Source: Laccaria trichodermophora
Lineage: Eukaryota; Basidiomycota; Agaricomycetes; Agaricales; Hydnangiaceae
Direction: 5' to 3'
NCBI GenBank assembly: GCA_018417955.1
Contig: JACTVC010000043.1
Location: 164,845-228,844 of the forward strand
Length of the DNA: 64,000 nt
Under the pieces are notes generated by a model that did not search any database, was not told where the DNA came from, and saw only the letters and a list, made by a program, of their open reading frames with translations. The position numbers and the translations under genes were made by a program. Position 1 is the first letter of the stretch. Each line of letters opens with the position of its first letter. Positions 1,491 through 61,431 of this stretch are shown piece after piece.

Positions 1491-1588
1491 AAAAAAAAGC
1501 GCAACCTGACAGAATTGAACTCTCAACCTTATGGACATAGGGACAATATTATAGAGACGAGCACTTTACCAGTTACACTAGGAAGGCA
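1491..1588 (-). ncRNA. tRNA-like Pol III cassette of element A
   Basis: On the minus strand an A-box-like TAGTGTAACTGG (1580-1569) is followed 59 nt later by a B-box-like AGTTCAATTCT (1521-1511) and then by eight T (1498-1491), a typical Pol III terminator. After the T-run comes an AT stretch and ATAATAACAACAACA, also found after the cassettes of elements B and C. The acceptor stem does not close, so it is tRNA-derived rather than a working tRNA. It lies about 0.3 kb from the GAGGTC-type end and points toward it. Confidence 0.7.
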
Positions 1589-8955: not shown

Positions 8956-10163
8956 TGCTTCAGCGTTTTGCGTGTTTCTTTTCCTTTCCTCCCCACTCAT
9001 TGTTTCCCCTCTGTGGTTGCTCCCCCCCCCTCTTGTATATAGATGTATATAGATGTATATAGACCTCACAAGACCCGTATATAGACTTTACATACAATTA
9101 TATACGCTGATTGTATGCAATATATATTTTAAATGCATCGTCACAAATACAGAGCACGCTAAGTTCCCCCTCCCATAATCCATTCATTACACGTAGTATC
9201 ATTGATGAGGGTAAAACACACCAAGGATAACAGGTAAGCCTTCAACACCTACATATCTCATTGTAACTAATCTAATAACAATCGACTCCTTTTATTCAGC
9301 CCACAACGAAATGAGTACGGAATGCCGCCATGGCTGTCCTTTTCGGCGAAAAGCGGTACTCACGTGATGGAAAGCAACTAGCCCTAAAGTCAACAAAAGA
9401 CAAAACAGCGCGCAAACAATCTCGAGCTTCTTTCCCATCTTCGTGCAGTGTCCGTGTAGTTTGTAGAGTCTATAGCTTTTAGAAACATTTGTGCGTGCTA
9501 GTAACTGAATTCCAGATGACTGTAATGTAATAGAAATGCAAGGAAATCCTCATGGAAGTGGAATACCCTGAGAGACCAACGAAACGCATAAAGCTCGAGG
9601 CAAGTCCCCCTTATTCTTGTGAGATTGATTAGCAAGCTAATCACACAACAGAACCCAGAAGTTCTTCAATTTTTGGATCTCGAAGCTGAAGTGTCAGAGG
9701 CAGAAACCGATGATGAGAATAACGGCAACGAAGGTGTGTATCATATGTTGTAACGATAGCTACTACACTTCTAATCATTTTCAAGGTGATCTTATCGACG
9801 ACGATGAAGACATCGATGATTTGATCTCAGGAGATGAGGTCTTTACCATCCCCCATGAGTTCTGGCGGAATCCGGCAGATTCCAAGCGGAATGTCGGAAT
9901 TCCATGGAATTCCGACGGAAACTAGTTGGCTGGAGCCTCAGCCATTCTGGTTTCCAATTCCATGGAAATTCCAATGGAATCCGACGGAATCCGGTGGAAA
10001 TGGTCGGAATCCGGGAGCCTCCCGGAACAGTTTCCATTGGAATCCATTGGAATTCCAACCAGATTCCATGGAATTCCAATGGAAAGTATATTCCAGTCAA
10101 ATTCCAACAGATTCCGAGAGATTCCAATGGATTCCAATATTTGTTGTTGTTATTATAATATAT

Positions 10164-10257
10164 AAAAAAATAAGTGGATGCATAAGGATTGAACTCTAGC
10201 CTCGGGGAAGGTCACGTGAAGTCCAAGCAGCAATATTTCCACTACACCATACGGCCG
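10164..10257 (-). ncRNA. tRNA-like Pol III cassette of element B
   Basis: Minus-strand A box TGGTGTAGTGG (10249-10239) and B box AGTTCAATCCT (10195-10185) are 54 nt apart and followed by seven T (10170-10164). The A box matches the Pol III consensus well. The 5' (GGCCGTA) and 3' (TGCATCC) ends pair only in part, so it is a tRNA-derived unit, not a tRNA gene. Past the terminator comes ATAATAACAACAACA as in elements A and C. Confidence 0.75.
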
Positions 10258-10329
10258 TTAAAATTGTACAAACATTTATTCTATACAACCCACCCTCACG
10301 GCCACCTTCCTAAACGAGTCGCGGCGTTT

Positions 10330-11395
10330 GCCGGCGTCACCATCAGCATTTCCGTTTTGCTGTCAACCACAACCACAACCTCAACCACAACCACCACCAC
10401 CACCACCGTCACCGCGACCAGCTCGGTCCCGCCAACCACGCCCACGCCAGCGGACAACGACGACGACACGACGACGACACGTCAGCGACGACGAGGCCGG
10501 CCACACGACGACGGACGACGACACGTCAACGCACGACGAGGACGACGACACGTCAACGCACGACAACGACGGACGACACGTCAACGCACGACGACGACGA
10601 CGGACGACGACGACGGGTCGCGTCAACACACGACGACCACGCACGACACGTCAGCAACAACAAGGACGACACGTCAACGGACGACGACAACTCGTCAACG
10701 GACAACGACGACGACGGACGACAACGACTCGTCAACGGACGACAAAGACGACGACGGACGACGACGACGACACGTCACGTCGACGGACGACACGTCAGCG
10801 ACGACGAGACGGCGCACGTCAACGGACGACGACGAGGACGACGGCGACACGTCAACGGACGACGACAAGCCCCCTCCCTTTTCCCTCCCCCCTTCCTATT
10901 CCCTCCTCCTTCCTATTCCCTCCTCCTTCCTATTCCCTCCTTCCTATTCCCTCCCCTTTCCTTTTCCCTCCCCCTTCCTTTGTCCTCCCCCTTCCCTGTC
11001 CCTCCCCTCCCTCTTCCCTGTCCCTTCCCTTTTCCCTCCCCCTTCCCTTTTCCATCCCCCTTCCCTTTTCCCTCCCCCTTCCCTTGTCAATCCTCTATTT
11101 CTTGTGCCCCCCCCCTTCCTTTTCCCTTTTCCCTTCCCCCTTCCTTTTCCCTTTTCCCTTCCCCCCTTCCTTTACCCTTTTACCTTCCCCCCTTCCTTTT
11201 CCCTTTTCCCTTCCCCCCTTCCTTTTCTCTTTTCCCTTCCCCCCTTCTTTTTCCCTTTTCCCTTCCCCCTTCTTTTTCCCTTTTCTCTTCCCCCCCCTTC
11301 CTTTTCCCTTCCCCCCTCTTCCTTTTCCCTTTTCCCTTCCCCCTTCCCTCCTCATTTCCTGCCCCTTCCTTGCCCATCCCCTCCCTCTCTAGTAT
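10330..11395. repeat. GACGACGACACGTCAACG-rich block plus CCCTTTTCCC polypyrimidine tract
   Basis: From about 10440 to 10870 the DNA is built from GACGAC, ACGTCAACG and similar short units. From 10870 to 11390 it is CCCTTTTCCCTTCCCCCTTCC-like. All three frames stay open through much of it (Thr/Arg/Asp, then Pro/Phe/Ser), which is a composition effect. The GAC-rich part resembles the Asp/Asn-rich coding region of the first gene in element E, so it may be an expanded relic of that gene. Confidence 0.8.
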
Positions 11396-11559
11396 ACACT
11401 GTATGTAGTTAAATATATTCTGTATTGTAATTGAAATACATCATTATTTGATCTAAATCACTTGTGAATTTGTGAATTTTATAAGGAGGTTTGAATTTCT
11501 GACTTGAATAAATACAGCTCAAGTCACCTGACCTCTACCTCAGTTCTGATCAGCACTAA

Positions 11560-11905
11560 TCAGTCTTCTGGAATTCCATTCAGAATCCAGCGGAATCCAT
11601 TGGAACTCCATTCAGAATCCAGCGGAATCCATTGGAACTCCATTCAGAATCCAGTGGAATCCATTGGAATTCCATTCAGAATCCGGTGGAATCCATTGGA
11701 ATTCCATTCAGAATCCGGTGGAATCCATTGGAATTCCATTCAGAATCCGGTGGAATCCATTGGAATTCCATTCAGAATCCGGTGGAATCCATTGGAATTC
11801 CATTCAGAATCCGGTGGAATCCATTGGAATTCCATTCAGAATCCGGTGGAATCCATTGGAATTCCATTCAGAATCCGGCGGAATCCACTGGAATTTGAGA
11901 TTCCT
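11560..11905. repeat. 32-bp subterminal tandem array of element B
   Basis: About nine copies of a 32-bp unit containing GGTGGAATCCATTGGAATTC lie head to tail, each with internal inverted symmetry (GGAATCC against GGAATTCC). The same array is present in element C at 45370-45655 on the other strand. There is no variable spacer, so it is not a CRISPR array. Confidence 0.9.
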
Positions 11906-13568
11906 ACCATTCCAGCGGACTCCGGATGGAATTCTGACATTCTATGGGAGTCCGTCGGAGTCCGCCGGAACTCATGGGGGAGGGTAAAGTACTGCAGGAG
12001 ATGTGCACCGCAACCTTCTCCATGAAGCGTTGATGCCGTCCGATGACGATGTGTTTTGGGAAAGCTTTCTCGAGCGCGTTACAGCTCATCGACACATTGC
12101 GGAAGAAGACATTCAAGATATCGGAAAAGTGTCTTTACAGGCGGTGCTTGTCAAGGTAATGCTAATCCAATCTTTGAAGCTCATATTTATAAGGACTTTT
12201 CTACTTAGCCTGGGTATGAGGAGGGGATAGTCTTTCGAGTCCATTGGCGGCTCATGGACCCTAGGTTTCCTGCACAGTTTCAACCCCCAGCGGTCTTTGG
12301 TTGGAAGGCTCTACCTGGTAGAGTGTTTTTTGAAGGTGGTTCAGAGGAAATGATTCGACAAGTCTGTAATGGCCTACCAAACGTGATGGTCTCGAAGACT
12401 TTCCACATACCCGATCCCAACCCCTCCATTTTCAATGTTCCAGATACCTTTCGGCCACAGCCTCATTCATGGGTTCGACTGCACCATGGGATCTACAAAG
12501 GAGATCTCGCCTACGTTTGGGAGGTTACTACTTATTCAACATTGCTCATCAACCTCCTTGTGGTACCACGCGTTGATTATGACCCACCTGCCACCAAATT
12601 CAAAGGAAGCCAGCTTATCGCATATGAGGACAGAAATAATGAGAGGGACGACGAGTTTGCAGCGACCTACAAGCCTGACTGCGAGCTATATAGAAGAGCT
12701 TCAGCACCAGGGCGGCCTCGCCAAGCCCTCTTCAATCTGACACTGGCGAAGCAACGGTATCGACAGGCCTTTCAACAGCGCAACAACCTGTTTTTATTCC
12801 GCGGAGTGTTGTACGATGCCGACGGATACGCCTATTTCTCAGAAGTCGACACGGATTGGTACATGGCAGAAGATGTAGTACCAACATTGAGTGAATTGGA
12901 ACTTTTCAACGCCTGCTCGGACATTCCTCTCGACGTCCGACAGCACACGATGGCGAGAATGTCAGCCAGGATCCTTCGGACAGGCAATGAGGTAAAAATC
13001 ACACATGGAGATTCAAGGAGGCTTCTTGGAACAATTATTGATGTAACGGAAGGCGAAGTCGTCATCTTTTTGACAATGAAGGATGTAACAACTACCTTAC
13101 CTTTTTCGTCACTTCGAAAAGATCTCAAAGTAGGGGATGAAGTCCGCATTCTTTCGGGAGACCACGAAGGTGTTACAGGTTGGGTAGTGAATCAAAATGA
13201 TGACTGTGTGTGCATCTTTGATGACAGGACCCTTACTGAGGTGAATATCTTGCTTTATAATATATATAGCTCTTCTAACATTCCATCATCTTGTAGATAG
13301 AGGCATCCCCTGGGATTGTTCAGTTCTTCACCTCCCCCTTCATCTTTGGAATGGGGTCCTCGGACTTGAAAGCTTCCTTCACAGATGCGCAAAAGCGTGT
13401 CATGAAGGGGGACTCCAATAGTCACCTGGTAGGAAGACATGTGATGGTCACCCATGGGAATTTTAGAGGTTACCGAGGCAGAGTAAAAAGCACAATTGGT
13501 GAGAAAAGGGTCTTCGTCGAGCTTGAGGCGCTCCTCCAATGCCCACAAATTTTGGACATCAGTTCTCT

Positions 13569-21074: not shown

Positions 21075-22615
21075 CAATACTTTACACTCCCCGGGATATT
21101 CCACATGGACTGGTATGGAATGAGGATGGAATGGATAAATTCCATGGATTCCCACCATGGAATGAAGATGGAATGGTATGGAATGAAGATGGAATCCTAT
21201 GGACCATTCCATGACTATTTCTTTGGATTCCATGGACTATTCCATCTGAATATCTGGATTCCATGGGTTATTCCATCTGGATTCCATATGGAAGAGTTCA
21301 GGTCATGTGACTTCATGCCTGTCATATTTATTCTAAGTCCAATGTTGCCAATTGATTATTGTATTTTGTTCTATAATAACCTCACAACTTTCTGCTTAGA
21401 ACAGTTATATAGATTAAAATTCTAATATATTGAAGTGCTACACAAATATTATCCTACTATATTCTAAGTTAAAGGAAGGGGGGGGAGCAGAGAGAAATGG
21501 GGGTGGAGGAAGGAAGGGATGGACAGGGAAGAGGGGAGGAGGAAGGGTGTAGGGACAGGGAAAAGGGAAGGGGAAGGGTGTAGGGACAGGGAAAAGGAAG
21601 GGGGAAGGGTGTAGGGACATGGAAAAGGAAGGGGGAAGGGTGTAGGGACAGGGAAAAGGAAGGGGGTAGGGACAGAGAAATGAGGAGGGACAGAGGAGGG
21701 AGGGAAATGGAAGGGGTATATGGAAATGGGGGGGAACAGGGGAAAGGGAAGGAGGAAGGGGGAGGGACAACACTCATCGCCATGGCCGTCCATTAGTGTC
21801 ATCGTCATCATTGGGTGTTGGTGTCATTGTCATGTGTTGGCATTGTTGTTGTGCATTGGTGTTGTTGTCATGTGTTGGCGTTGTTGTTGTGCATTGGTGT
21901 TGTTGTTGTGCATTGGCATCGTCATCGTCGTGTGTTGGCATCATTGTTGTCATTGTGCGTTGGTGGTGGCATCATCCTCATCTGTTGGCATTGTCATCCA
22001 GCGGTGTCGTCTTCATCTGTTGGCGTCGTTGTCATCCATTGGCATCATTGTCGTCCATTGGTGTTGTCGTCCATTGATGTGGTGGCCGTTGATGTGGCAG
22101 TGGTTGGTCATGCATGTCGTCGTTGGTGTGGCTGTGGCCGTTGATGGGGTGGGGACGGATGGGATGGTGCTATGGGCAGTCGTGCCGTTTCATCGTTGTG
22201 GGCAGTCATCGCCATGTGCCATTGTTGTGTGCTGGTGGTGGTGGTTTGGAGAAAGGAGGCCATGTCACACATTGTGACAATGGCATCATGTTTGTACTCC
22301 CATGTGAGATCACATGTATATCTCACATGTTTATGATCTCACGTGACTGCCAGATTTGGCAAAATTTTCATGGAATTGAGTGGTCTGGATTAATTATTTG
22401 GAATCCAATGGAATCCACCTGGAATGATCCATGGAATCCATGTGGAATGTACCATTCCATCACCATTCCATGTGGAATCCATAGTGAATATGGAATAAAA
22501 AAATAGCTGGGGACTCAGCCAAAAATATTCCATATGGAATCCATGGAAGGGATGGTGGAATCCAGCCATTCCACATGGATTCCATATGGAAAACCCCAGG
22601 GAGTGTAAAGACCTC
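21075..22615. mobile_element. Element D: non-autonomous KDZ-type element in the Tc1-like transposase
   Basis: The left end is CAATACTTTACACTCCCCGG and the right end CCCAGGGAGTGTAAAGACCTC. Perfect TSDs CAAAGATC lie at 21067-21074 and 22616-22623. Removing it turns the host sequence into AFSKI-KAFLRHH, a typical continuation after the catalytic Glu. Subterminal ATGGAATCC and CCATATGGAATCC repeats flank a GGGAAGGGGGAAGGG polypurine block (21470-21770) and a GTTGTTGTGCATTGG-rich block (21790-22250). Unlike A, B, C, E and F I cannot recognise a tRNA-like cassette. Confidence 0.92.
21470..22250. repeat. Polypurine and GTTGTTG-rich low-complexity core of element D
   Basis: The first 300 bp are almost pure purine on the plus strand and the next 450 bp are built of CATTGTTGTTGTGCATTGG-like units. 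These are the mirror counterpart of the polypyrimidine and CAC/GAC-rich parts of elements A and B. The Val/Cys/His-rich open frames here are artefacts. Confidence 0.8.
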
Positions 22616-37617: not shown

Positions 37618-40263
37618 ACTAGATAGTGTAGTAATTCTAAGTCCCCCAAACGAACCTGCATGACACAAACATCCACATGGATGTGCACCAACTCCCAAAC
37701 TCTGCCTGACCATCAATTCTCCTCCTCCATTGAAGACGTTTCAGAAACCCCAGCCCTCACTAGGAAATCGTTGACGTAGCACACCACCCTCTGTGAGTCG
37801 CTCTCCATCGCCAGCCTCTGAATGCCCCTGTCCAACCCCATGAGTGCCAAACCCAGCAAATCCTTTGTTTCCTTGGCCATAGTAGCCATGAGAGTCATAT
37901 GGACGACCATGTCCTTGATATTGGGGGCGGACGCCATGGCCTCTTCCACCAAAGTCAGATGGTGCATACTGTCGTGGATGGTGACCATAATATTGGAAAT
38001 TTGAGAACTGGGGTGGAGGTCGGTGATGGTGATCCTGCATGGAAAAAGAGGGTTTGAACCTAGTCACCTGATACTCATCCATGAAAGCATCGTGCCCATC
38101 TTCATCATACATGTTAACATCCGCATCGTAGTCATTGTGATTGCAAACATCAGTGTCATTCCATGGAATGACACCTCTCGGACAAGAGCCACTTGGACGG
38201 TTTGACCCAGCATCATCATGAGTATGGCGCTGCTGGGACATCCCATGGGAATTGAGTCCTTCGTCCAACCTGCACTCATTTCCTAGCCCTGGGTCGTGCT
38301 ACGGGGATGCTGCCCTTCTTGACTCTCCCAACCACTGTCTCTGGGTCCACCTCGGTTATTGCGCACTAGCTGTGAACCCAAATCAGCCCCTTGGCCTGGC
38401 ATCTCCTGGCAACAGACATGTTTGGCTGGAGGAGAGTGAATGGGGGAGATAACAGGAGCACGAGAGTTGCCGGCCTGAGTATCCTCATCAGAAGTCGGTG
38501 ATTTTTCGACCTGGACACCAGCTCCTGAAGGCTTGGAGTCCTCATGTAACTTGCGCTTCTGCCTGCCAACTTGTGTGGAGGTTGTCGCCATCTTCTTCTT
38601 TTTGACTACCTTCAAGGTGTTGACCTCGATCATCTGGCTACGAGCTCTGGCATGGAGTAGTGGAGGGCAGTCAGCACCTCCATCGTTTTGTCAAGCCACA
38701 TTCTCAACCTCCAGCAAGCAGTTTCTGACACGGGCAAGGACAATGAGTGCCCCTGATTCGGATTCACCAGTAACGATGGGTATGTCCAGCCAATCCTCAC
38801 TCCCCTCTGCCAAGTCCATGTAATCTAAAGCCCAATCAATTAGAACATGCATCATGAACATCACCAGTCAAACTTACCATCAGACCAGGAGACAATTTGA
38901 GGAGCTAGCTCCTTCGTCTCGCCCTTGCTAATCATGTACATGAATATCATATTAATCCCATTTGAACTGATGTCGGTTATTGACCATCCCTTTGCTCCAG
39001 GGATGGGTTCATTGCAAGGCCAACGTTCAAGAATCATTTGAGCGTCACAGCAGTGGGTGAAGAAGTTGGCCCACAAAGCCGATGATGAAGCTATCGCAGG
39101 ACCTGCACAATCCACTGCAAACCGATCAGCAGGTAGCTCACCCCAACAAGACAAATGGAACGTACCAATCTGAAATTTCATTAGGTAAGGTACACATCTC
39201 CATGAACGATCTCGAGAAGATTCCATGGGTCAAGACCCTTCCCTGGTTTGGCAATTCCAATAAGATGCAGGAACAGCACTCATTGGCTGAGTTAAATCAG
39301 GGTCGGAAGAGCTTGCCACACCTTTCGAAGACTTGGATTTTTTGGCCAGACTTTTTGTAACCTTCGTGTGCTCCCTGGGTTCCATGGGGGGCAGTTGCAG
39401 CACTGTGCTTGAGCCTTCTACGTTTGCATCCAAGTTCACCACATCAACTCCAAGCAATTGTGAGATGTCCATGGTTTCTGGTACAATAAAATTAGAGGCC
39501 ATCCCCCTGCATAGTTAAAGGTCAATATACCTTCTCAATTGAGAATACTTATATCACTAACCGAAGAAGCATTGTCAAATGATGAAGTAACTTCTTGATG
39601 TCCGCTTGACTGTGCTCGATGACATGTTGCAGCAAAGGATTGCCTGTGACAATGGTAGCAGCCTGGTTGGCCACAGGATCACAAGGAATGATTACCCCGA
39701 TCATGTCCAAGTCCACCCTTCCCAACGCCGTTGCCTATGAAATCAGAATATTAGACAAAGTCACTGCAGATAAACTGTCCAAGCTCACCAAGTCTTGAAC
39801 TTGCTTCAGAGCCGACTTCGGAGGTCTTTACCCTGCCCGGGTTAATCCATATGGAATCCATCAGCAATTCCATGTGGAATCCATGGAATGAATGTTGGCT
39901 GGGACCACAGCCAATTTATCGTTCCATGGACATCATGGATTCCATATGGAATGATCGTGGAATGGTCATGGAATGGTCAATTCCACATGGAATCCATCAC
40001 TATTCCACATGGATTCCACTGAATTCCATATGGAATTTATGCATATCCACCATGGAATCCATGGACAAGTCCATATGGAATCCATGGATAAGTCCACATG
40101 GATTCCATGGAACAAGTCAACATGGATTCCATGAACAAGTCAACATGGATTCCATGAACAAGTCCATATGGATTCCATGGAAACCATTAGAATACATACA
40201 AGCAGTACTAGAAACTATTGAATAGAAACTCAGTAGCATTTGTAGTGTCCTTACTATATTAAA

Positions 40264-40355
40264 AATAAAAATTTTAAAGTTGCATTCTCGAAGGATTGAA
40301 CTCGAGACCACAGGGATGCAAACAGCACTAAAGCCCACTGGACCAAACCAGCTTT
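40264..40355 (-). ncRNA. tRNA-like Pol III cassette of element E
   Basis: Minus-strand A box TGGTCCAGTGG (40345-40335) and B box AGTTCAATCCT (40302-40292), followed by TTTTTATTTTT about 20 nt downstream. It is in the same place and orientation as in A, B, C and F, about 0.45 kb from the GAGGTC end. Confidence 0.7.
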
Positions 40356-40515
40356 GTTAGATATAGAACCATGGGAAAATATATCACACCCTCATGGCCC
40401 GTTGTGTCCCAAACGTGGTAACTGTGACTGAAGCGTTGCCACGTCACTTCTTTCTTACCACAACCACGACCATCAACGACCACGACCATCAACCAACCGC
40501 TACCACCTCGACTCC

Positions 40516-43455
40516 ATGCCACCCTGTACCCGTGCCGACGACAAGGCCTCGCGCAGCGGCCACATATGCGTCCATTCACCCGTCCGAAAGCGAGGACCGT
40601 CCAACGTGGGCGACCAGGCCAGCAAGCACCAGAAGAAACATCAGGAGGACCCCGACGACATGCCCACACAGCCCGAAGCAATGCAGGAGGAGGCGAGAGG
40701 AGCAAAAACGGGGAAGAAGAGAGGGGGGAAGACGAAGAAGGGGAAGAAAACGAGGTGCGTACCCCATCCATGTCGATCACCCCCCATTGATAACGCCGAT
40801 GGGCCCCGATTACAGGAAAACGAGCGCCGACAAGGCTGCTGAGGATGCCAGCCAGCCATCTCCCACCAAACTCACCCCGTAAGCAGCCTCCCCCCCCTTT
40901 TTTATATTTTTTTCTAATACTACTAACATCTGCAGGGCCGAGCGAAAGCTTGTCGCCAGCGGCATCACCATTGCCCCCCCAGAATGAATCCAGGATCCCA
41001 AAGCATCCCACATGCTGCCCCTGCCAACCATCATTAGCACCTGGGAGCGTTGTCACGACGACGATGCCCCCATGAAGGACCCACGCATGGACGACAAGGA
41101 CCACAGTGGCAACAGCTTGGAAACGAGCAGCGAGGACCACGGTGGTGCCCACGACGACGCCAGCAGTACCAGCCAGGAGGATGACATCGAGGACGACAAT
41201 GGGGACGACGATAACGGAGACGACGACAACAGGGACGACGATAACAGGGACGACGACAGTGATGGGGACAACAACGAAGACGACGCCCCCGCCAACGCTC
41301 ACAGCAGCAACGACAGCAACGGAGACAGTGGGGACGACCGCGCCAGCAAGAAAGAAGACAAAGGTGATGCCAACGCCAGCGACAACGACACCAACGACAA
41401 CGATGCCAATGCCAACGACAACGACGCCAGCGACGATGACACCAATGCCAACGCCAATACCAACACCCTGCGCGATGACACCAGCCACCTCAATGCCAAC
41501 GAAGACGACGCCAACACGAACCGCACCAACGCCAACATCAATGCAGGCGACGCCAACACCAACCCCGACACCTGCGCCAATGCCGACAACGACAACGATG
41601 TCAGCACCAACACTGACACCCACCACACTAGGGCCGTGGGCAACGACAAGGCCCCCAGCCCAGCTTCTGGTTCTGAACATGCCCGAGGCAGTGAACAGCT
41701 CACCACTGACCTCGAGATGTTGGAACCAGGCCCAGGTATATACATTCCCTTAATTTTGTACTTTAATTTATACATATGTATAATAGTTACCTCTCTCCCT
41801 GCCCCTGCTGCTGATCAGGGTAATATAAATTATTCAATTTTCTATCTTCTAATTTCTGACTTGCTTATATTTTAGATGTTGATATGGAATTAGAAGGGAG
41901 CCCACCAGCGCTTGGGTCTTCACACACAACAGGGGGTTTTTTACATGGAAGGGCATTGGGAAACACCTTAAACCATGCCGATTTTCCTAAGGTTCATTCT
42001 GGTGAACATTTTTTTACAGGCAGTTCTCAAGTGGACTACAAGATTTTTGCTTATCTGGTCTACAAAGACCCTGTTGAACTTAATGTAATTCCTGATCCTT
42101 TACTTCCTGCCAACACCATCTTTTGTATCTCTACTGTTCCTCCTTTGGAATCTGGGGTCGTTTTAAAGAAAGTAGCTAATCGGCTTGAGAGTGTCAAAGG
42201 TGGGTGAAGCCAAATATTCAACACTTTCAATTTACTGATGATTTTAAAGCTGCTCATGTTTTTTTGCAATCTAACTTGTCTGGTACTTGGCAGTGGAATC
42301 TCATGGGTCACTATGACAATGCTTTGTTGGATAATGAAAGCCTTGAAGTCAATAACAACAATGAATGTCATATTTTATTTGTGAGTTTTATTATTGGTAT
42401 TTATTGTTTTCATTTTCTTATTTTACATTTAAAGTGCCTTCCAAACAACTCTTTATTCTCTCTGGGATCTTCTTACCCCCCTTCCACTCACATCTCTAGT
42501 TCAATGTCTTGCTCTGCAGTATCTGAGTCTCGTTCTGGGTCCATGTCTCGCTATGCATTCTCTGAATCTCATTCCCATCCTGATACTTCTCATTCTCGTC
42601 CTCATACTCCCATAGACGTTTCTGTGCCATCTGGTGCTAAACGCACTATTGATGAGAATCTGCTCCATAGACTTAAAACAGCTGGGTTGCAGATCAATGA
42701 ATCTCTGTGCTATGATACAAGCCCTGGTCTTCAGGTTATGTATCAACGTTACATACACATCCATAAGATTCAGGCTCAGGTTGCTGACATGATTGCTGAG
42801 TGCAAGTGGCCAGCAGATGTTGGCAAGTATCCAAATAAGACTGAAATCATTGGTCTTTTTGTGGCCAAAACTACCTGGCACAATTCTTATGCCAAACTCT
42901 TTCCCACTGCTGAGGGCTATGAAGATATGCTGGCTTGGCTGGAGGGTGATCCCAACTCTAAATCAGACCTTGAGCTTTGGGGTGTCACAAAGTTGAAGTA
43001 CACTCTGGTAGACTTGGAGGAATGGCTTAAAAAGCAGAAAGGCAAGAAAGTAGTCAAGTCCATGATGAAATCTGCTGCCAAGCCTGCTAAGGGTGCAAAG
43101 GAGAAGGAAAAGAAGCAAGGGTCAGGGTCAGGTGTTGGGAAGGGAGACCAAACAGAGTTGAAGCAGAAAGAAGTGGCCACAGAGCAGGTTGATAATAAGA
43201 AAAGGAGCCACAAGAAGAAAAAGGTTGCTGCTAGTGGGTAGGTAGATTTTGGACTCATCTCAATGTTTTTTTTTGTATTTGTATAAGTGTGTTCACAAGT
43301 GTTCTCTTTTTTTTCTTTAGTGGTCATTACTGGATACTTCTAGTTCACTGTCTGACTTTGGCAATTCTGCACTTGTTTATGGTTCTAAAAATGCTTGGTC
43401 CTTCTTTGATGGTTCTGATGTTTCTGTGCCCTGGTGCCAATGCTATGCAAAATGA
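40516..43455 (+). CDS. Element E gene 1: acidic and Ser/Lys-rich protein of unknown function
   Basis: A likely first exon starts at ATG 40516 (MPPCTRADDKASRSGHICVH) with a basic end (KKGKK) before a GTGCGT donor. Further parts include GPDYRKTSADKAAEDASQPS with a GTAAGC donor, and an Asp/Asn-rich stretch from about 41012 (DDNGDDDNRDDD type). After an intron with GTATAT donor come VDYKIFAYLVYKDPVELNVI and GTWQWNLMGHYDNALLDNES. A Ser-rich linker, DMIAECKWPADVGKYPNKTE, WLEGDPNSKSDLELWG, a Lys-rich region and SLSDFGNSALVYGSKN complete it. It ends with TGA at 43453-43455, overlapping the putative start of gene 2 by 11 nt. It could be an accessory protein for transposition or cargo; I do not recognise a known domain. 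Exon borders in the first kilobase are tentative. Confidence 0.55.
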
Positions 43456-45369
43456 ACAAGCATTTCCAGATATCTCATTCAAAGTGTTCAATGAGATTAT
43501 CACACAGAATTTCAGTTCAAAAATCACACTTGCAACTGTGTTGATGCTGTTGTTTAGCACAGTTGAAAACACAGATTTATTGAATCTCCATCGACGTCAG
43601 CAAAATCCCCAGCTTTCAGATGAAAAACGAGTAAATCTGAGCTCATGGATCAAATCACTGGCTTGTGAAGTTGAAAAGCAGACTCCAAAACCAAAATTTA
43701 AAACTTTGTTTAAACAATCAGAAAATTTGAAATCACTTCCTGACAACCAAATTATAACCAGCATTGGAACAAAGCTCAATAACTTTGCTGATTTATTGGG
43801 TCTTAATTCCTTTGGAAGTGATGGAAGGCCAATTCAAAGACTTCAACCAATTTCAAAAAAGGAAATTCAAGCAATCATGATAATTTGCCCACCATCAAAT
43901 GTTTGTTCTGATGTTAAATGTTGAGGACGTGCCATTTTGCAACACTCAGATCCTAATGAAATTGCCACAACAACTCTTATTAAAGGTTCTGAAATCTTTA
44001 AAGATGTTGCTATTCTGAGTGGAAAATGTTCTAGTTGCAAAACTCACTATTTTGCTGATCATGAAAATTACCCTCAAGTTGGAGGCTCTCAGAGATGGGT
44101 ATATCTTAATAATGCAAAATATTTGAAAGTTGGAAAATCTCTACATGTTGACCGAACATTTTCAAATGCCGTTGTTGATGGAACATACAGCTTTCATGCA
44201 TCAGTGGCTGCTTATGCTGAGTTCTGGACCAACAGCTATGGAAAACAAGGCTCACTCAAACTTGAAAGACATCAAATTTGGCAGGCATTTGTTCATGAAA
44301 CAGTTTGTACCATTGCTCAAGCTTCTGGGGTCACATTTGAAACCAATGATAATCCATCAATTGATGACTTCACTCATGATGCATTTGCTATTCTTGGTGA
44401 AGGTGGTGCTATGAGGCTGTCTGACAAACACACCTGCTCTGAGTGTACTCAAGAACGCAAGGCAGTTGCAGATTTTCTACCTGCTGCCAATGATGCAGCA
44501 GCTGTCCTTGGTGTTGATGAAAATCAAGCTGTACCTCAATTAGATGCTGCAGCTGCTGAAGAACTGCAAAATTTGGCAGAATCAGATGACCCAATGGATG
44601 TTGATACTGTAAATCAACCAGCTATGGTGAACATGGTTGTAATAGATGGCATTGTTATGGGACCAACCCATTGTGCATTTGATAATTGTACAAGACCTCT
44701 TACAAATGCTCGTGGAAAGGGAGAATCATTTTGTCAGACCCATGAAAGAGAATTTCATAATCGTTGTCATGTTAAAGATTGTCAAAATAACAAGATTAAC
44801 GGAACTCAAGCTTGTCATGAACATCGCAATGACTGGCATCGATATATACAGTCTCAATCAAAGTCAAGCTTGGCTGGTGTACGACGAATGCTAAATCGAC
44901 CAAATGAAAATCTTGCCTGGAATCCAGAAGTTCCCAGGGATGTTCAACCTCATGATGAGGATGCTCCTGAAGTAGAAAATAAAAACTATTTCAGTCCAAA
45001 GCGTTATTATTGTGTGGAAACAATTGTTGCACCTTGTGGTGTTGTCATTGCATGGGTCAAATTTGCAAAAGCTGAATCACCAACAAACATTCTAAAGTTT
45101 ATGGAAGATACATTTCCAGATGAAAGTACAAGACAATGGAAGCTGGGATGAATGGTGCAAGACTACCCGACTTATGGTTGATGCATATCATTACATCAAT
45201 CATCGCACTACAGATATGATCTGCCAAAAATATTGCAACCCTGCTCCTCTTGATGGATCAGCACCTAATTTGGTTATTGAAGCAGCAGTACTTTACCCTC
45301 CCCCATGAGTTCCGGCGGACTCCGACGGACTCCCATAGAATGTCGGAATTCCATCTGGAGTCCGCTGGA

Positions 45370-46920
45370 ATGGTAGGAATCTCAAATTCCAGTGGATTCT
45401 GCCGGATTCTGAATGGAATTCCAATGGATTCCACCGGATTCTGAATGGAATTCCAATGGATTCCACTGGATTCTGAATGGAATTCCAATGGATTCTGCTG
45501 GATTCTGAATGGAGTTCCAATGGATTCTGCTGGATTCTGAATGGAATTCCAATGGATTCTGCTGGATTCTGAATGGAGTTCCAATGGATTCCGCTGGATT
45601 CTGAATGGAATTCCAATGGATTCCACCGGAATCTGAATGGAATTCCAGAAGACTGATTAGTGTTGATCAGAACTGAGGTAGAGGTCAGGTGACTTGAGCT
45701 GTATTTATTCAAGTCAGAAATTCAAACCTCCTTATAAAATTCACAAATTCACAAGTGATTTAGATCAAATAATGATGTATTTCAATTACAATACAGAATA
45801 TATTTAACTACATACAGTGTATACTAGAGAGGGAGGGGATGGGCAAGGAAGGGGCAGGAAATGAGGAGGGAAGGGGGAAGGGAAAAGGGAAAAGGAAGAG
45901 GGGGGAAGGGAAAAGGAAGGGGGGGAAGAGAAAAGGGAAAAAGAAGGGGGGAAGGGAAAAGGGAAAAAGAAGGGGGGAAGGGAAAAGAGAAAAGGAAGGG
46001 GGGAAGGGAAAAGGGAAAAGGGAAAGGAAGGGGGGAAGGGAAAAGGGAAAAGAAAGGGGGGAAGGGAAAAGGAAAAAAGAAGGGGGGAAGGGAAAAGGGA
46101 AAAGGAAGGGGGGGGCCACAAGAAATAGAGGATTGACAAGGGAAGGGGGAGGGAAAAGGGAAGGGGGATGGAAAAGGGAAGGGGGAGGGAAAAGGGAAGG
46201 GAGAGGGAAGAGGGAGGGGAGGGACAGGGAAGGGGGAGGACAAAGGAAGGGGGAGGGAATAGGAAAGGGGAGGGAATAGGAAGGAGGGAATAGGAAGGAG
46301 GAGGGAATAGGAAGGAGGAGGGAATAGGAAGGGGGGAGGGAAAAGGGAGGGGGCTCGTCGTCGTCCGTTGACGTGTCGCCGTCGTCCTCGTCGTCGTCCG
46401 TTGACGTGCGCCGTGTCGTCGTCGCTGACGTGTCGTCCGTCGACGTGACGTGTCGTCGTCGTCGTCCGTCGTCGTTGTCCGTTGATGAGTCGTCGTCGTC
46501 GTCCGTCGTCGTTGTCCGTTGACGAGTCGTCGTCGTCCGTTGACGTGTCGTCCTCGTCGTTGCTGACGTGTCGTGCGTGGTCGTCGTGTGTTGACGCGAC
46601 CCGTCGTCGTCGTTGTCGTGCGTTGACGTGTCGTCCGTCATTGTCGTGCGTTGACGTGTCGTCGTCCTCGTCGTGCGTTGACGTGTCGTCGTCCTCGTCG
46701 TGCATTGACGTGTCGTCGTCCGTCGTCGTGTGGCCGGCCTCGTCGTCGCTGACGTGTCGTCGTCGTGTTGTCGTGTTGTCGTCGTTGTCCGCTGGCGTGG
46801 GCGTGGTTGGCGGGACCGAGCTGGTCGCGGTGACGGTGGTGGTGGTGGTGGTGGTTGTGGTTGAGGTTGTGGTTGTGGTTGACAGCAAAACGGAAATGCT
46901 GATGGTGACGCCGGCAAACG
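45370..46920. repeat. Tandem array, polypurine and GTCGTC-rich blocks of element C
   Basis: 45370-45655 is the 32-bp GGAATTCC array, 45830-46350 is GGGAAAAGGG-type polypurine, and 46350-46800 is GTCGTC / GTTGACGTGTCG-rich. It mirrors 10330-11905 in element B. Long open frames here are not genes. Confidence 0.85.
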
Positions 46921-46988
46921 CCGCGACTCATTTAGGAAGGTGGCCGTGAGGGTGGGTTGTATGGAATAAATGTTTGTACAATTTTAAT

Positions 46989-47081
46989 GGCCGTATGGTG
47001 TAGTGGAAATATTGCTGCTTGGACTTCACGTGACCTTTCCCGAGGCTAGAGTTCAATCCTTATGCATCCACTTATTTTTTT
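46989..47081 (+). ncRNA. tRNA-like Pol III cassette of element C
   Basis: A box TGGTGTAGTGG (46996-47006), B box AGTTCAATCCT (47050-47060) and seven T (47075-47081). It is essentially identical to the cassette of element B and points to the GAGGTC end on the right. Confidence 0.75.
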
Positions 47082-50000
47082 ATATATTATAATAACAACA
47101 ACAAATATTGGAATCCATTGGAATCTCTCGGAATCTGTTGGAATTTGACTGGAATATACTTTCCATTGGAATTCCATGGAATCTGGTTGGAATTCCAATG
47201 GATTCCAATGGAAACTGTTCCGGGAGGCTCCCGGATTCCGACCATTTCCACCGGATTCCGTCGGATTCCATTGGAATTTCCATGGAATTGGAAACCAGAA
47301 TGGCTGAGGCTCCAGCCAACTAGTTTCCGTCGGAATTCCATGGAATTCCGACATTCCGCTTGGAATCCGCCGGATTCCGCCGGAACTCATGGGGGATGGT
47401 AAAGACCTCCGAAGCAGAGACAAAAGATGGGGAAAAATATTTGAAACGAGCATTCAATACTCAAGCATGTGAACAATTGAATGGGTGGATTGGGGGATTT
47501 GATTCTATTTTGAAAAGGATGACTGTTGATAATTTCAACTGGTTTTTGCATGCAATGTTGTTTTATCATACCTGATATGTTCTTGAGAAGATAAAAAAGA
47601 GGGAAGAAAAGATGAAAGAAGGGGATAATGGAGATGGTGATGATAGTGATGATGATGGTGGTAGTGATAATGATGTATAATTTTAGTAGATAAAAGCTCA
47701 AATTTTTGTACTATGTCAATCAATACAACAACAGACAATTTTAAGTGTAAGATGTTTATTCCACAAAGTCATTCCATATGGATTCCATATGGAGTCCATG
47801 TGGATTCCACTCTGTAAACAGTGTAAGATAAGTGTGGAATTATGATTCCATGAACTCATTCCATATGGAAAGTCCATGGAATCCACCCACCAAAAGTATG
47901 GAATCCATCAGGAAAGTCCATGGAATCCATCAGGAAAGTCATGGAATCCATGTGGAAAAAGTATGGAATCCATATGGAAAAACCATGGAATCCATCCCCC
48001 ATTCCATGGAATCCACCTGGAATTTCTGCAGTCCACCCCCCATTCCATGCATTCCATATGGAATAACCTGGGCAGGGTAAAGTACTGCGACTTCGTCATC
48101 TTGAACTCCTGCTGGTCAACCTCTGGCTTGAACTCTGCCAACTCTACAAGCATATTCTGCCGATAGTCCTCCAGCTCATCCTCTGAAAGGTTCTCCGTAA
48201 GGATCTTGTACATCTCTGAGGCCTGGGTAGACCACGAGCGACCGGCAGCTAAGACTAATCGATGAAGCCTGATAACCAAGACAAAGAAAAAAAATGTACT
48301 CTGTTTGGGATTGTAACTCTGGTGACGCAGGTACATTTGCCATACATCCCACCAGGACGGCTCACAAGAAAGGGAGACATTGAAGCCCCTTTTGCGTAGG
48401 ACAGACTTGGGTGTACGGCCCATGTTCTTGCAGTATTCCACGATGGTGTCTGCAAGCTCCTTGGCTTGATCCATTTCACGAACTGAGAAAGGCCCACGCT
48501 TAGCCTTTGGCGCAGGATTTGAATGTTTCTTTCCCAGTGCCTTTGTGCTAGCAACAGGGCGCGCATGAGGACTTTGGCTTGCACCCTCCACCTGATCCCT
48601 CATCGTCTCCTGAAGGCGTCCATGGAGGTGGCTTACTCTTCACCAGACGATGTAAAGTCTGTGTGAACTCCTCTCCTTCATCACATGCCTCGTTATTGTC
48701 TCCTGAAGGTCTTGGTGCAGGTCGTTTGCCCTTCACCAAACAACACCGAACGTGACTGTTTGTCTCTGGCGAAAGGTTCTTCAATGGGTTTTTCCCCTTG
48801 CTTTGACGATGCCGATCCTGCTCCTCTACTTCCTGCATTATCATCTCATCATTGGCCTCCTTCTCCTCAGTATCCATTACGTCGTGGCCAAGTCCCCGAT
48901 TCTTTCGAGCATGGTCAAGCTGAAGCTTTTCAGCCTTTCTGGACTGGCTGTAGTCACTTGGTGTCAACGAAGACTCTATATCTGCACCAGGTTCATCGTC
49001 TGGTATGCACTGCAACTGAGGGCATTGTTTGTTGTTTGGCATGGATGATGTGGGCAGGCTGGCCTCTGCATCGGGTTTACTCTGCCTCCTGGCCGCATTC
49101 TGCTTCGTGACCTGCCTCTGCTTCATGCTCTGGCTTAATTTCATTGCCTGACTCTGCTTCCTCTCCATTGCCTGGCTCTGCTCTGATGCCTGAATCTGCA
49201 CTCTCGCTGGACTCTGCTTTGTTGTCTTCGCTACACCCTACACTCCCTTCCGCTAAGCATTTGGCCCGACACCTGGCAACTCTCGTTGCTTCCTCCCACC
49301 ATTCCTCCACTTCACCAAGACGGTTCAATGCAGCGGGGGGATCTGTGGTGTAGCCTTTGGGGAGAGACTCCCATTGTTGAGTCACCTGATTGAACCAGGA
49401 AGTGAACTGGGTATACTGATGGGCAGGGTGAGCACCAGTGGCCTTCCAAATTCTCGAACAATGTCCAATGTAATCCCTTCCCCCCATGACTCTGCCAATA
49501 TGGCAGAAATATACGGTTACTGGATGTGGAAGGGAAGAGGCAAGAGGGAGGGGGAGCCTATCATCCTCTGGCATCATGGAATCGAAATCTTCATCGCTGG
49601 AAGTGGGATCAGGAGTCTTGGGTTTGCGATAGCGCAGTGTAGGATCAATGAAAGTAAGTGAAGGTACGTCTGGCCTGTGGCATAACGTGTAGAGACCATG
49701 CGAACGAGACACAGCCTGAGTGGGGCCAGAGATGGGTGAAGAGGGAAGAACCCCAGACGAATCATTTCTGAAATATTGTCAGAAACCACCCTTACTTAGA
49801 TCAATTTAAGTTACCTACATCGGAATGAAAGTTGATTTGATTGAAAATGTGCCCTCTGCTGGCAGGGAAACTCTGGCAGATGCAGCACTGTGAGTTATGT
49901 TGAACAAGATGGGGAAATTCGATGGAAACACACACTCACATCAATGTGGCCTGGACAGACAATGGCAGGCCAAAGCCAATCGACCCAGACAATCCCCTGT

Positions 50001-50970: not shown

Positions 50971-53900
50971 CACTAGTGGTAACCACTTCTTTTGATAAAT
51001 CTAAGCCATTGCCACATAAGCCATTGTGTATAATGCCACACCCTTCAATGAAAGGTTTCATTAAGTTCACATATCTTTCATTCATTAAAATGTCTTATGT
51101 TTTCATTTCATTTCAGTCCTCAGCCATTTCATTGACTGATCTCATAATCAATTTCATTACTATCTCCTTTGCCTCTCATTGAATTCTGGAAGCCTTTTTC
51201 ATTCCCATACCTTGGTAGATTTCATTATAGATTTCATATCTATTTCCTGCTGCTTTCAATGAAATTTTCATTCTTATAGCTTGAGGATTTCATTGTGAAT
51301 TTCATAATCATTCTCTGGCTCTTTCAATGAAAATGTCATTCCATACCTCAGTAAATTTCATTCTTTATTTCATATCTATTCACTACTGCTTTCATTGGAT
51401 TTTTCATTCTTTTAGCTTGGGAATTTCATTGTAAATTTCATATTTATTCCCTGGCTCTGTCAATGAAAATTTCATTCCCATACCTTAGAATATTTCATTG
51501 TAAATTTCATATCTATTTCCTGCGACTTTCAATGAAATTTCATTCTTGTAGCTTGGGGATTTTATTGTAAATTTCATATTTGTTCTCTGGCCCTTTCAAT
51601 GAAAATTTCATTGCCATACCTTAGAATATTTCATTGTGAATTTCATATCTATTGCCTGCCACTTTCAATGAATTTTTCATTCCTGTAGCTTATAATGATG
51701 TCGCATGTCAGGGTTCATTGGGTGGTCACATGACTAAATACCAAAAATGGTCAAAAACAGAATTTGTAGCCCTACATTGTAGCTTCCCAAATCTGTTTGA
51801 ATTGTATTATAAAGTGCTCCTGTTGTGGAGATGTGAGATGAAAGATTTTCTCATCGCTGGCTTTTTTCAACCTTTTTGCATTTTTCTCCATGAAAACAAC
51901 ACCAAACAACATAATTTCAACACATTCAGGAAATTTAAAGAGAGGGCTACAATTATTGTATTGTGGGAAAAATGACCAAAAAAGGAAGGTGCATGCCCTA
52001 AAAGGGACATTCACATGGACAGACAGCCACTAGACTATAAAAGTCAGTTATAGACTACAAAGTTTACTGATGGACTACAAGAGTTTGTATTCTCCGCTTT
52101 TTTCAGTAAAAAAGTTTGTAGTGTCCTTAGAAAAGCTTGTAGTGTCCACCATTTCCATTAGAATATTTGTAGTGTCCGCTTTTTCCATCACAAAAACTTG
52201 TTGTGTCTGCTTTTTTCATTTAGAAAAGTTGTAGTATCCGCATTTTAAGACTACAAAGAGTTGTAGTGTCTGCTTTTTTCATTAGAAAAGTTGTAGTGTC
52301 CGCTTTTTAAGACTACAAAGAGTTGTAGTGTCTGCTTTTTTCATTAGAAAAGTTGTAGTGTCCGCTTTTTAAGACTACAAAGAGTTGTAGTGTCTGCTTT
52401 TTTCATGAGAACAGTTTGTAGTGTCCACTTTTTGAGACTACAAAATTTGTAGTGTCCACATTTTTCATTGGAACAGTTTGTAGTGTCTTCTGCTTTCTGA
52501 CATATCATTTGCAGTGTCCACATTGTACAAAGGTTTGTAGTGTCCGCTTTTTGAGACTAAAAAAATTTGTAGTCTGCTTTCTGACATATAGTTTGCAGTG
52601 TCCTTGACTATGAATAGGTTCATGAAGATATAGACAGAGGGTTGATTTGACTTGACATTTTCCATTTCTGCATCATAGGTGTTGACATCCTGCCCAGGGT
52701 TGTCTTTTACATCAGGGAAGGTTTTCATATCACAACCTACTATCCAATCTCTGACAATGTCCTATTTATTCAGTAGCTCCAGTTCTATGTCTGACTACAG
52801 CCATCCCTCACAACATCCAGCTTGGAAGCTATAAATTCTCTGTCACATGTGTGCAGTGGATCATGTCTTTCAATATCATGATGGGTTGTAACTTTCCAGG
52901 CCTTCATCATAGCCAGTCTTGACTTTTGAGAGAATTCATTCAAAGGTACCATGAATGAACAATAAAGGGTACTTAGTTAGGTCTTCTGTCTTTGCCCTGT
53001 TTATCAATGCTCATCCAGAATTGAGGTGAAAGACAACCTGGGAGTCTGTTGTCCTTTTTCACCATGACCTGCATTGCTAAATGTAATAAAGCCTTTGAGG
53101 ACCAATCAGCCCACCTGTGCAGCATTGTACACATCAAAGAATCATTTTAAAGTTGAATTTGCTTGAAAAGAGGACAGTACTTGATAATACCAAAAGAATG
53201 GACAGCTTCTTCTGACATGAAAGCCAACCTTGGGCATGATGTCAAAAGACAATGCAAACTATATGTCAGGAAGAGTTGACTACACACTTTTGTAGTCTCA
53301 AGAAGTGGACACTACAAACTTTGTATTGAAAAAAGCGGACACTACAAACTTTTAGAGTCTCAAAAAGCGGACACTACAAGGTTTCTAATGAAAAAAGCGG
53401 ACACTACAAACCTTTGTACAATGTGGACACTGCAAATGATATGTCAGAAAGCAGAAGACACTACAAACTGTTCCAATGAAAAATGTGGACACTACAAATT
53501 TTGTAGTCTCAAAAAGCGGACACTACAAACTGTTCTCATGAAAAAAGCAGACACTACAACTCTTTGTAGTCTTAAAAAGCGGACACTACAACTTTTCTAA
53601 TGAAAAAAGCAGACACTACAACTCTTTGTAGTCTTAAAAAGCGGACACTACAACTTTTCTAATGAAGAAAGCAGACACTACAACTCTTTGTAGTCTTAAA
53701 AAGCAGATACTACAACTTTTCTAAATGAAAAAAGCGGACACTACAAACTGTTTCTAATGAAAAAAGCAGACACAACAAATTTTTGTGATGGAAAAAGCGG
53801 ACACTACAAATATTCTAATGGAAATGGTGGACACTACAAGCTTTTCTAAGGACACTACAAACTTTTTTACTGAAAAAAGCGGAGAATACAAACTCTTGTA

Positions 53901-54952
53901 GTCCATCAGTAAACTTTGTAGTCTATAACTGACTTTTATAGTCTAGTGGCTGTCTGTCCATGTGAATGTCCCTTTTAGGGCATGCACCTTCCTTTTTTGG
54001 TCATTTTTCCCACAATACAATAATTGTAGCCCTCTCTTTAAATTTCCTGAATGTGTTGAAATTATGTTGTTTGGTGTTGTTTTCATGGAGAAAAATGCAA
54101 AAAGGTTGAAAAAAGCCAGCGATGAGAAAATCTTTCATCTCACATCTCCACAACAGGAGCACTTTATAATACAATTCAAACAGATTTGGGAAGCTACAAT
54201 GTAGGGCTACAAATTCTGTTTTTGACCATTTTTGGTATTTAGTCATGTGACCACCCAATGAACCCTGACATGCGACATCATTATAAGCTACAGGAATGAA
54301 AAATTCATTGAAAGTGGCAGGCAATAGATATGAAATTCACAATGAAATATTCTAAGGTATGGCAATGAAATTTTCATTGAAAGGGCCAGAGAACAAATAT
54401 GAAATTTACAATAAAATCCCCAAGCTACAAGAATGAAATTTCATTGAAAGTCGCAGGAAATAGATATGAAATTTACAATGAAATATTCTAAGGTATGGGA
54501 ATGAAATTTTCATTGACAGAGCCAGGGAATAAATATGAAATTTACAATGAAATTCCCAAGCTAAAAGAATGAAAAATCCAATGAAAGCAGTAGTGAATAG
54601 ATATGAAATAAAGAATGAAATTTACTGAGGTATGGAATGACATTTTCATTGAAAGAGCCAGAGAATGATTATGAAATTCACAATGAAATCCTCAAGCTAT
54701 AAGAATGAAAATTTCATTGAAAGCAGCAGGAAATAGATATGAAATCTATAATGAAATCTACCAAGGTATGGGAATGAAAAAGGCTTCCACAACATAATGA
54801 AAGCCAATTGGAATGGTAATGAAATCCTAAGACACTTTAATGAATGAAAGATGTGTGAACTTAATGAAACCTTTCATTGAAGGGTGTGGCATTATACACA
54901 ATGGCTTATGTGGCAATGGCTTAGATTTATCATAAAAGTGGTTACCACCAGC
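50971..54952. mobile_element. 4 kb hairpin (foldback) element with TTTCATTG and ACTACAAA repeats
   Basis: The left end CACTAGTGGTAACCACTT and right end GTGGTTACCACCAGC are inverted. Flanks TTCATTTT (50963-50970) and CTCATTTT (54953-54960) suggest an 8-bp TSD with one mismatch. Left and right halves are mirror copies: identical 107-codon frames at 51652-51975 (plus) and 54001-54324 (minus) show arms over 1.6 kb with almost no divergence. The layout is TTTCATTG repeats, conserved core with GGTCACATGACTAAATACC, GTAGTGTCCGCTTTTT / AAGACTACAAA repeats, and a 0.65 kb centre. Same family as 13569-16795. Confidence 0.85.
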
Positions 54953-61334: not shown

Positions 61335-61431
61335 AAAAAATGAAATTGCATGAGCAAGAATTGAACTCTCGAGCTCATGAACTGGATGCCCAAGATCACC
61401 ACACAATTAACCATTGAACCACAAGGCCTTA
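61335..61431 (-). ncRNA. tRNA-like Pol III cassette of element F
   Basis: Minus-strand A box TGGTTCAATGG (61421-61411), B box AGTTCAATTCT (61367-61357), six T (61340-61335). Its position next to the GAGG end of F is as in A, B, C and E once the gypsy is discounted. Confidence 0.72.

Follow-up and report, generated by a model that had tools for sequence, protein, structure and literature searches.

Promoters of RNA polymerase III (Pol III) are known as fixed parts of mobile DNA from retroelements and viruses. The A and B boxes of tRNA-derived short interspersed elements (SINEs) are of tRNA origin, and the VA genes of adenovirus, the EBER genes of Epstein-Barr virus (EBV) and the tRNA-like genes of murine gammaherpesvirus 68 (MHV68) are A/B-box genes in parasite genomes with defined functional RNAs. 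In tDNA insulators and TFIIIC-bound boundary sites, a Pol III promoter stands between a Pol II gene and the flanking chromatin. Here, a tRNA-like Pol III unit (the cassette) is described in KDZ DNA transposons of the fungus Laccaria trichodermophora, as found in a stretch of 64 kb (the window; contig JACTVC010000043.1, with positions counted from its first letter) and surveyed in the genome of 59 Mb in 77 contigs. The cassette is a position-fixed part of several KDZ families, in which it is common and not universal.

The transposons Zisupton and Zisupton-1_PGr have 8-bp target site duplications (TSDs), as given in the available part of PMC12730594, the main text of which holds 'trna' and 'pol iii' at 0 occurrences. 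The elements of the window are like KDZ transposons in their CxC5/CxC6 protein, 8-bp target duplications and inverted ends. Dada DNA transposons have been linked to tRNA genes, and two Dada families occur in Laccaria bicolor, according to the accessible portion of PMC3706591. In the available portions of open-licence papers (including PMC12730594, PMC3706591, PMC3411680 and PMC8889193), no tRNA-type Pol III unit in a DNA transposon is reported; such a promoter, seemingly selected, is unexpected in cut-and-paste transposons.

Cassettes of the window and their host elements

Both strands of the window were scanned for an exact B box (GRGTTCRANYC), an A box (TRGYNNARNGG, at most one mismatch) starting 31-72 nt upstream and a T-run of at least four. 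The strict scan gave exactly five cassettes, the same five that a sequence-only reading of this DNA had proposed, as compared to a chance expectation of 0.025 per 64 kb (mean of 40 first-order Markov sequences of the same length). The start-to-start distance of the A and B boxes is 42-58 nt in these five, which corrects the value of 43-59 nt given in that reading. The cassettes and their elements are as follows.

39821..48087, + strand: KDZ transposon A, GAGGTC-TTTACC end left, CAGTAC-TTTACC end right, element B nested inside
39813-39820 and 48088-48095: TSD of element A, 8 bp, CGACTTCG
43925..45151, + strand: KDZ protein part of A with CxC5 and CxC6 domains (Pfam PF18718, E=2e-19; PF18721, E=8.9e-18; both above the cut-off)
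40264..40355, - strand: cassette of A; A box 40345-40335, B box 40303-40293, T5 40271-40267; faces the GAGGTC end at 39821
40378..40383, - strand: TATA-like TATATT of cassette A, 38 bp upstream of the A box
45286..47409, - strand: element B within A, with the CAGTAC end on the left and the GAGGTC end on the right; TSD TGAAGCAG/CGAAGCAG, 7/8
46989..47081, + strand: cassette of B; A box 46996-47006, B box 47049-47059, T7 47075-47081
9836..11994, + strand: element D, a sister of B; TSD CAGGAGAT, exact over 8 bp
10164..10257, - strand: cassette of D; A box 10249-10239, B box 10196-10186, T7 10170-10164, TATAGA 10285-10280
1491..1588, - strand: cassette of element 1; A box 1580-1570, B box 1522-1512, T8 1498-1491
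61335..61431, - strand: cassette of element E; A box 61421-61411, B box 61368-61358, T6 61340-61335, TATAGA 61459-61454
21075..22615: element F, sixth family member, without cassette; exact TSD CAAAGATC at 21067-21074 and 22616-22623

The window elements have unlike ends, GAGGTC-TTTACC on one side and CAGTAC-TTTACC on the other, followed by GGAATCC-rich repeats; in A, B and D, these sequences constitute the terminal inverted repeats. The 8-bp target duplications are exact for A, D and F and match at 7/8 positions for B. The elements with cassettes are assigned to the KDZ DNA transposons by the CxC5/CxC6 protein that element A encodes and by the 8-bp target duplications. This protein has 602 protein matches at E<=0.001, and those of the listed matches that bear an organism name belong to Laccaria amethystina, Galerina marginata and Hebeloma cylindrosporum. 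Its gene reads away from the GAGGTC end, and B is inserted directly after the KDZ protein part.

In all four elements that retain the outer end (1, A, B and D), the cassette points at that end. The earlier claim that it is always transcribed toward the GAGGTC end thus holds for the direction in these four. The outer end of element 1, at 1168, reads GAACTCTTTACTC and not GAGGTC (four genomic sisters, L069, L075, L080 and L086, read GAGCTCTTTACTC), and that of E is lost in the window. The other end of E, ..GGTAAAGTAC, lies at about 62869; in its sisters L067 and L073, the outer end reads GAGGACTTTACTCT and is found at 268 and 285 bp from the B box. The strict scan of element F (21075-22615) gave no cassette in spite of its exact TSD, in agreement with the proposal that five of six members carry one. 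Among the TATA signals, TATGGA at 46960-46965 of cassette B is a weak match, replaced by TATATA in some of its genomic sister copies (40 genomic matches), and element 1 has a weak TATGTA at 1620-1615. ARAGORN predicted 0 tRNAs in the window and Rfam at E<=10 gave no tRNA match there; the window cassettes are therefore tRNA-like promoters and not recognisable tRNA genes.

Two side observations concern these elements. The CAGTAC ends of B (45355-45706) and D (11505-11952) contain 32-bp GGAATCC-type arrays of 8 and 10 overlapping register copies, respectively, with a sub-threshold match to the Rfam tsr1 model; the transposase may bind these repeats, which would then distinguish one end from the other. 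Positions 1-1167 are coding-like, retrotransposon-integrase-like by eye, and are cut by element 1.

Placement and direction across the genome

The survey of ends and boxes was restricted to contigs 1-16 and C17 below 947 kb, where the match lists are complete; the two lists behind it comprise 99 of 199 and 99 of 186 matches. Pairing of 183 ends with 183 boxes, further end and box variants included, at distances up to 600 bp gave 66 boxes inside the element and directed toward the end, 0 inside and directed away, 2 outside and toward, and 0 outside and away. The 66 pairs lie 203-399 bp from the GAG..C-TTTAC end, while 1000 shifted placements gave a mean of 0.65 and a maximum of 7. By end class, the inside-toward fractions are 24/33 (CTT), 17/36 (GAGCTC), 12/33 (CAT), 9/33 (GAGGAC), 4/30 (GAGGTC-ACT/TCT) and 0/18 (CCT). 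Over all lists (279 ends, 290 boxes), at least 100 distinct B boxes are inside-toward within 600 bp and at least 104 within 1.5 kb, and no B box inside an end points away within 1.5 kb.

The random places and orientations expected of a chance SINE insertion are thus contradicted by 66 inside-toward pairs against none away, with a shift mean of 0.65, and the cassette stands as an integral transposon part, at a fixed position in several KDZ families. Although the boxes are short and degenerate, their origin as chance matches can be dismissed with near certainty, given five cassettes against 0.025 expected in the window and a direction count of 66 to 0; chance boxes are ruled out by the Markov control together with the shift control.

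In the genome, B-box strings outnumber their reversed patterns: 78 against 5 for GAGTTCAATTCC, 37 against 3 for GAGTTCAATTCT, 69 against 21 for GAGTTCAATCC and 186 against 7 for GGGTTCAATTC. Boxes of the GAGTTCAAT type, searched within 1.5 kb in the whole genome, are inside and pointing outward at 29/66 GAGGTCTTTACCTT ends, 34/71 GAGGTCTTTACCAT ends and 2/43 GAGGTCTTTACCCT ends; none is inside and pointing away, and two are outside an end and face it. Their distances to the end are 238-472 bp, save 832 and 1441 bp at two CAT ends with a B-type box farther off, and 1273 bp (1285 bp in a further scan) at L021. The last is no true exception, as the own end of L021, GTTTAAAGACCTC, is 241 bp from its B box; likewise, the cassette of L025 had appeared to lie outside a CCT end but belongs to a separate end at a distance of 320 bp. 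No listed end lies within 1.5 kb for 123 of 191 B-box places, and those read are partly unrelated sequence and partly unlisted end variants. Five loci (L092, L097, L099, L107, L108) belong to a dispersed repeat with CTGAGTTCAATTCCCC and no obvious A box, which gives false B-box matches.

A total of 74 CTT/CAT ends were without a GAGTTCAAT-type box, and 11 of these, all on the plus strand and picked by place, were sampled. Variant cassettes with other B boxes were found in 5/6 CTT and 0/5 CAT misses. As boxes were matched exactly and five of the six CTT misses carry other B boxes, the end/box counts are lower bounds. Cassette types go together with end types.

The position of the unit relative to the transposase gene was obtained from 130 of 152 CxC5 matches, second pieces of split matches and unlisted matches being left out. 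A CxC5 match lies 0.6-7 kb inside 40 of the 279 listed ends, reading inward at 34 (mostly 3-6 kb off) and outward at 6, one of which is element B, nested in the KDZ gene of A. Cassette-bearing ends with a CxC5 match show the inward direction in 8/11 cases, in the CAT, CCT (A), CTT and GAGGAC classes. As CxC5 matches are mostly inward, the unit sits between the element end and a divergent transposase gene, mostly 200-470 bp inside the transposase-upstream end and always directed toward that end.

Conserved promoter signals and drifting bodies

The anatomy of the unit was examined in 48 distinct cassettes, 47 of them end-linked and one being E of the window, with 23/48 from the B family. At most two A-box mismatches were allowed, and 26 cassettes have none, 21 have one and one has two. 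A T-run of at least 4 follows the B box in 48/48 and of at least 5 in 41/48, as compared to 22/1530 and 7/1530 control stretches of the same loci. Counting by type, a T-run of at least 4 in 8/8 cassette types, is fairer since 23/48 cassettes are of the B family. The start-to-start distance of the A and B boxes ranges from 38 to 58 nt across cassettes.

The TATA signal played no part in finding the cassettes. In a 20-bp window from -45, TATA[TAC][AT] occurs in 19/26 cassettes outside the main B group (the 26 including two B copies, L033 and L058, missed by the sorting rule) and in 6/21 B copies. In a window starting at -30 it occurs in 12/27 outside B and 0/21 in B, while control windows starting at -300 to -75 contain it in 0-1 of 21 B copies and, outside B, in 0-1 of 11-17 cassettes. 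Of the T-type copies, 11/13 have the match beginning at -40 and two at -36; in L070 and L102 it is at about -40 by inspection. TATA is lost in L067 and weak in many B copies, including that of the window, and in element 1. Eight divergent cassette types, of which L070, L090 and L102 are represented by one locus each, thus share a TATA-like box, about 36-40 bp upstream of the A box, that the sequence-only reading had not mentioned. Of four host tRNA genes whose upstream sequence was inspected, the two for tRNA-Thr carry TATA at -38/-40 relative to the A box, and the two for tRNA-Ile lack it there. With TATA, A box, B box and T-run spaced as in tRNA genes, the unit has the features of a type-2 Pol III gene and is a putative member of this class.

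One chosen representative for each of the eight types was used for comparison across types. The A box, TATA segment and B box have mean pairwise identities of 0.69, 0.73 and 0.95, respectively, and the other segments of 0.32-0.51. The sequence-only reading had noted that bodies diverge while boxes are kept; this is borne out (0.32-0.51 against 0.69-0.95), and TATA and the T-run are likewise kept. Within the B family, 30 copies of the 40 genomic matches were aligned and sites were treated as independent; the A and B boxes have a diversity of 0.057 and 0.029, respectively, as compared to 0.120 for the body and 0.123 for the subterminal region, with π of 0.032 in the stretch after the B box.

The cloverleaf was examined in 12 of 15 sequences of 38-42 nt spacing, leaving out L131 and L132 (length) and L089 (no cassette). 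In the 12 aligned T/A sequences, 68% of cells are paired, as compared to 31-51% when slid. Two-sided changes occur in 2 cells, fewer than the 4.3 of shuffles, all 12 sequences have the same two anticodon-stem pairs broken, and a maintained RNA fold was not found in these sequences. None of five single folds tested clearly beats shuffles (z -1.4 to 0.55). The RNA fold as a conserved feature is hence unsupported by either set, and a genuine tRNA gene is rejected by the ARAGORN and Rfam results in the window and by stems that are not maintained.

A functional short RNA of about 100 nt, acting in cis or in trans by titrating host factors or guiding transposase, could also explain the retention of the unit. 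The T-run kept beside the promoter boxes would be needless for mere TFIIIC binding, and the conserved stretch after the B box in the B family is in accordance with an RNA product. However, the bodies differ between types to 0.32-0.51 identity, the A-to-B distance is variable (38-58 nt), and neither a maintained fold in the T/A sequences nor single folds better than shuffles were obtained, all of which make this explanation unlikely.

Descent from tRNA was tested with 30 distinct sequences from 32 host tRNA genes against 200 box-fixed shuffles. For the best host tRNA, 0/200 shuffles were as good for T_L098, T_L091, T_L096, T_L133, A, B and L070. The result is marginal for E_L067, L102 and 1_w1491 (2, 5 and 8 of 200, respectively), and no tRNA likeness against these shuffles was found for E_w61335, L090 and T_L132 (109, 90 and 163 as good). 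For one T-type cassette, the likeness to host tRNA-Thr extends past the boxes (z=6.5, 0/200 box-fixed shuffles). These alignments support a putative tRNA descent for some cassette types only.

Such likeness to tRNA-Thr would also be expected if a tRNA gene or tRNA-derived SINE had landed once near an ancestral KDZ end and had been carried passively thereafter, its place and direction reflecting common descent. The tracking of end types by cassette types, as simple descent predicts, and the existence of cassette-free families also agree with passive carriage. Decay would, however, hardly spare TATA, the A box, the B box and the T-run while their neighbours fall to 0.32-0.51 identity; the T-run is present in 48/48 cassettes and a within-family constraint on the boxes exists, though a modest one. 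Passive carriage is accordingly given a low probability, comparable to that of the short RNA. As TATA, A box, B box and T-run are shared, the segments between them have diverged and the cloverleaf is not maintained, the Pol III promoter appears to be kept and the tRNA not. It is very probable, as judged from these sequences, that a Pol III promoter unit is really present and kept by selection.

The window contains other repeats as well. A palindrome at 8845-8916 forms a long hairpin on both strands, with sub-threshold miRNA-model matches. Units resembling ATTTCATTGAATATTTCATT (about 68 bp) and GTAGTGTCCGC (about 62 bp) are tandemly repeated at 31795-32334, 51129-51673, 52068-52478, 53217-53848 and 54285-54779; their seemingly opposite orientation at 51.1-52.5 kb and 53.2-54.8 kb suggests another transposon with repeat-rich inverted ends. 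Arrays of a 56-bp repeat at 13608-14175 and 16080-16685, about 2 kb apart, are perhaps the ends of a further element.

A candidate boundary role and known Pol III units

The fixed place and direction of the signals, together with the free drift of the body, suggest selection on the bound Pol III machinery. An ancestral element may have acquired a tRNA or tRNA-like gene (Thr/Ala-like in the types of 42-nt spacing), the tRNA role of which would then have been lost while binding of TFIIIC, TFIIIB and Pol III was kept by selection. The bound complex would keep the transposase-side end nucleosome-poor and act as a boundary between the divergent transposase promoter and the flanking chromatin, and the T-run would halt Pol III before the terminal repeat and host DNA. 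Fungal KDZ elements are linked to TET/JBP genes acting on 5-methylcytosine (available part of PMC12730594), and in L. bicolor oxidised methylcytosines are reported to be enriched in elements with terminal inverted repeats (available part of PMC8889193); a chromatin pressure on KDZ elements is plausible in view of both. That the boundary or open-chromatin role is the main function of the unit has about an even chance of being right. The broader proposition, that a group of eukaryotic cut-and-paste transposons has its own Pol III promoter complex as a self-transported tDNA-type boundary, by which the transposase promoter would stay open at any insertion site, the promoter being conserved and its RNA drifting freely, is put forward tentatively and with slightly less confidence.

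Several observations weigh against a selected boundary unit. Most genome-wide counts are of B-box strings at ends, the A box having been checked in part of the loci, and in L089, which is among the copies counted, the A box is lost. The B-box identity of 0.95 is in part a product of the genome search, for which B-box strings served as queries, and the TATA identity of 0.73 includes a B representative, L059, with a better TATA than most B copies. In the B family, the boxes vary less than the body by a modest margin only (p=0.027 for A+B, 0.044 for B and 0.14 for A), and the most conserved part of the B copies is the tail past the terminator, TATATTATAATAACAACAACA, with π of 0.015 (47082-47108 and sisters). 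Transcription and occupancy by Pol III at the cassettes are predictions from sequence. Furthermore, the family with CRTAATCC-type ends has no own cassette in 29/29 loci scanned, nor in 5/5 sampled CAT misses, and some of its ends have an inward CxC5 match, which may belong to a different element. Element F lacks a cassette despite its exact TSD, and L002, L013 and L134 are CTT ends without one.

The cassette-free family deserves some detail. Ends of type GAGGTCTTTACCMTCCCCCACRTAATCC or near variants (L006, L008, L026) make up 29/30 end loci of one set, the remaining locus, L029, being element A. One member, L010, is complete at 1421 bp with a duplication of 7/8 and has therefore moved. Scanning of 30 CCT loci gave, in L009, one weak match toward and one weak match away (A box with 2 mismatches), which are taken as chance. 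A T-run with an AT-rich tail occupies a comparable position in the sampled cassette-free members, and AT-rich tails like TATATTATAATAACAACAACA also follow the terminator in other cassette types. For a possible decayed relic of the cassette in this family, two cassette-free loci were aligned to four cassettes; 9/300 shuffles were as good in the best case and 2/8 comparisons were under the shuffle mean. Of the listed ends, 66/183 have an exactly matching B box in place, a lower bound, and a large same-end family has no cassette. As this family, element F and some deletion copies are without it, the cassette is not universally required.

These copies also bear on a possible direct part of the Pol III machinery in transposition, in which transcription toward the end or bound TFIIIC would aid excision, target choice or the pairing of ends. 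The location of the unit at the transposase-side end, always aimed at that end, would fit such a role, but cassette-free copies have good duplications (F exact, L010 7/8), and a part in transposition is considered highly improbable. For the preferred boundary reading, about 100 in-place B boxes in one genome beside related cassette-free copies permit direct tests of the idea that a transposon can bring along a chromatin boundary of its own, and of the idea that selection can act on a Pol III promoter without regard to the RNA product.

Among known systems, tRNA-derived SINEs differ from the present unit, which has a fixed place inside DNA transposons and closes in a T-run. The viral Pol III genes (VA, EBER, MHV68) differ in their RNA, as the RNA body is not conserved here; no relatives in viral contigs were found by protein or by one T-type string. 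Some Dada families (Perkinsus), in the portion of the literature available, insert into tRNA genes, whereas here the tRNA-like unit is inside the element. The system nearest in kind is the Cassandra terminal-repeat retrotransposon in miniature (TRIM), likewise a mobile element with a host-derived Pol III promoter (5S) in its terminal region, as described in the accessible part of PMC10853983. Long terminal repeats (LTRs) with a 5S promoter were not found here, the ends being inverted and the boxes of tRNA-type A/B form, though no dedicated LTR search was made. Going by that same part, Cassandra is an LTR retroelement with the 5S promoter within its LTRs, whereas the DNA transposons described here have a promoter of tRNA type, and at one of their ends. 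Finally, tDNA insulators are host chromosomal genes, whereas the putative boundary described here, as deduced from sequence, would lie inside a mobile element.

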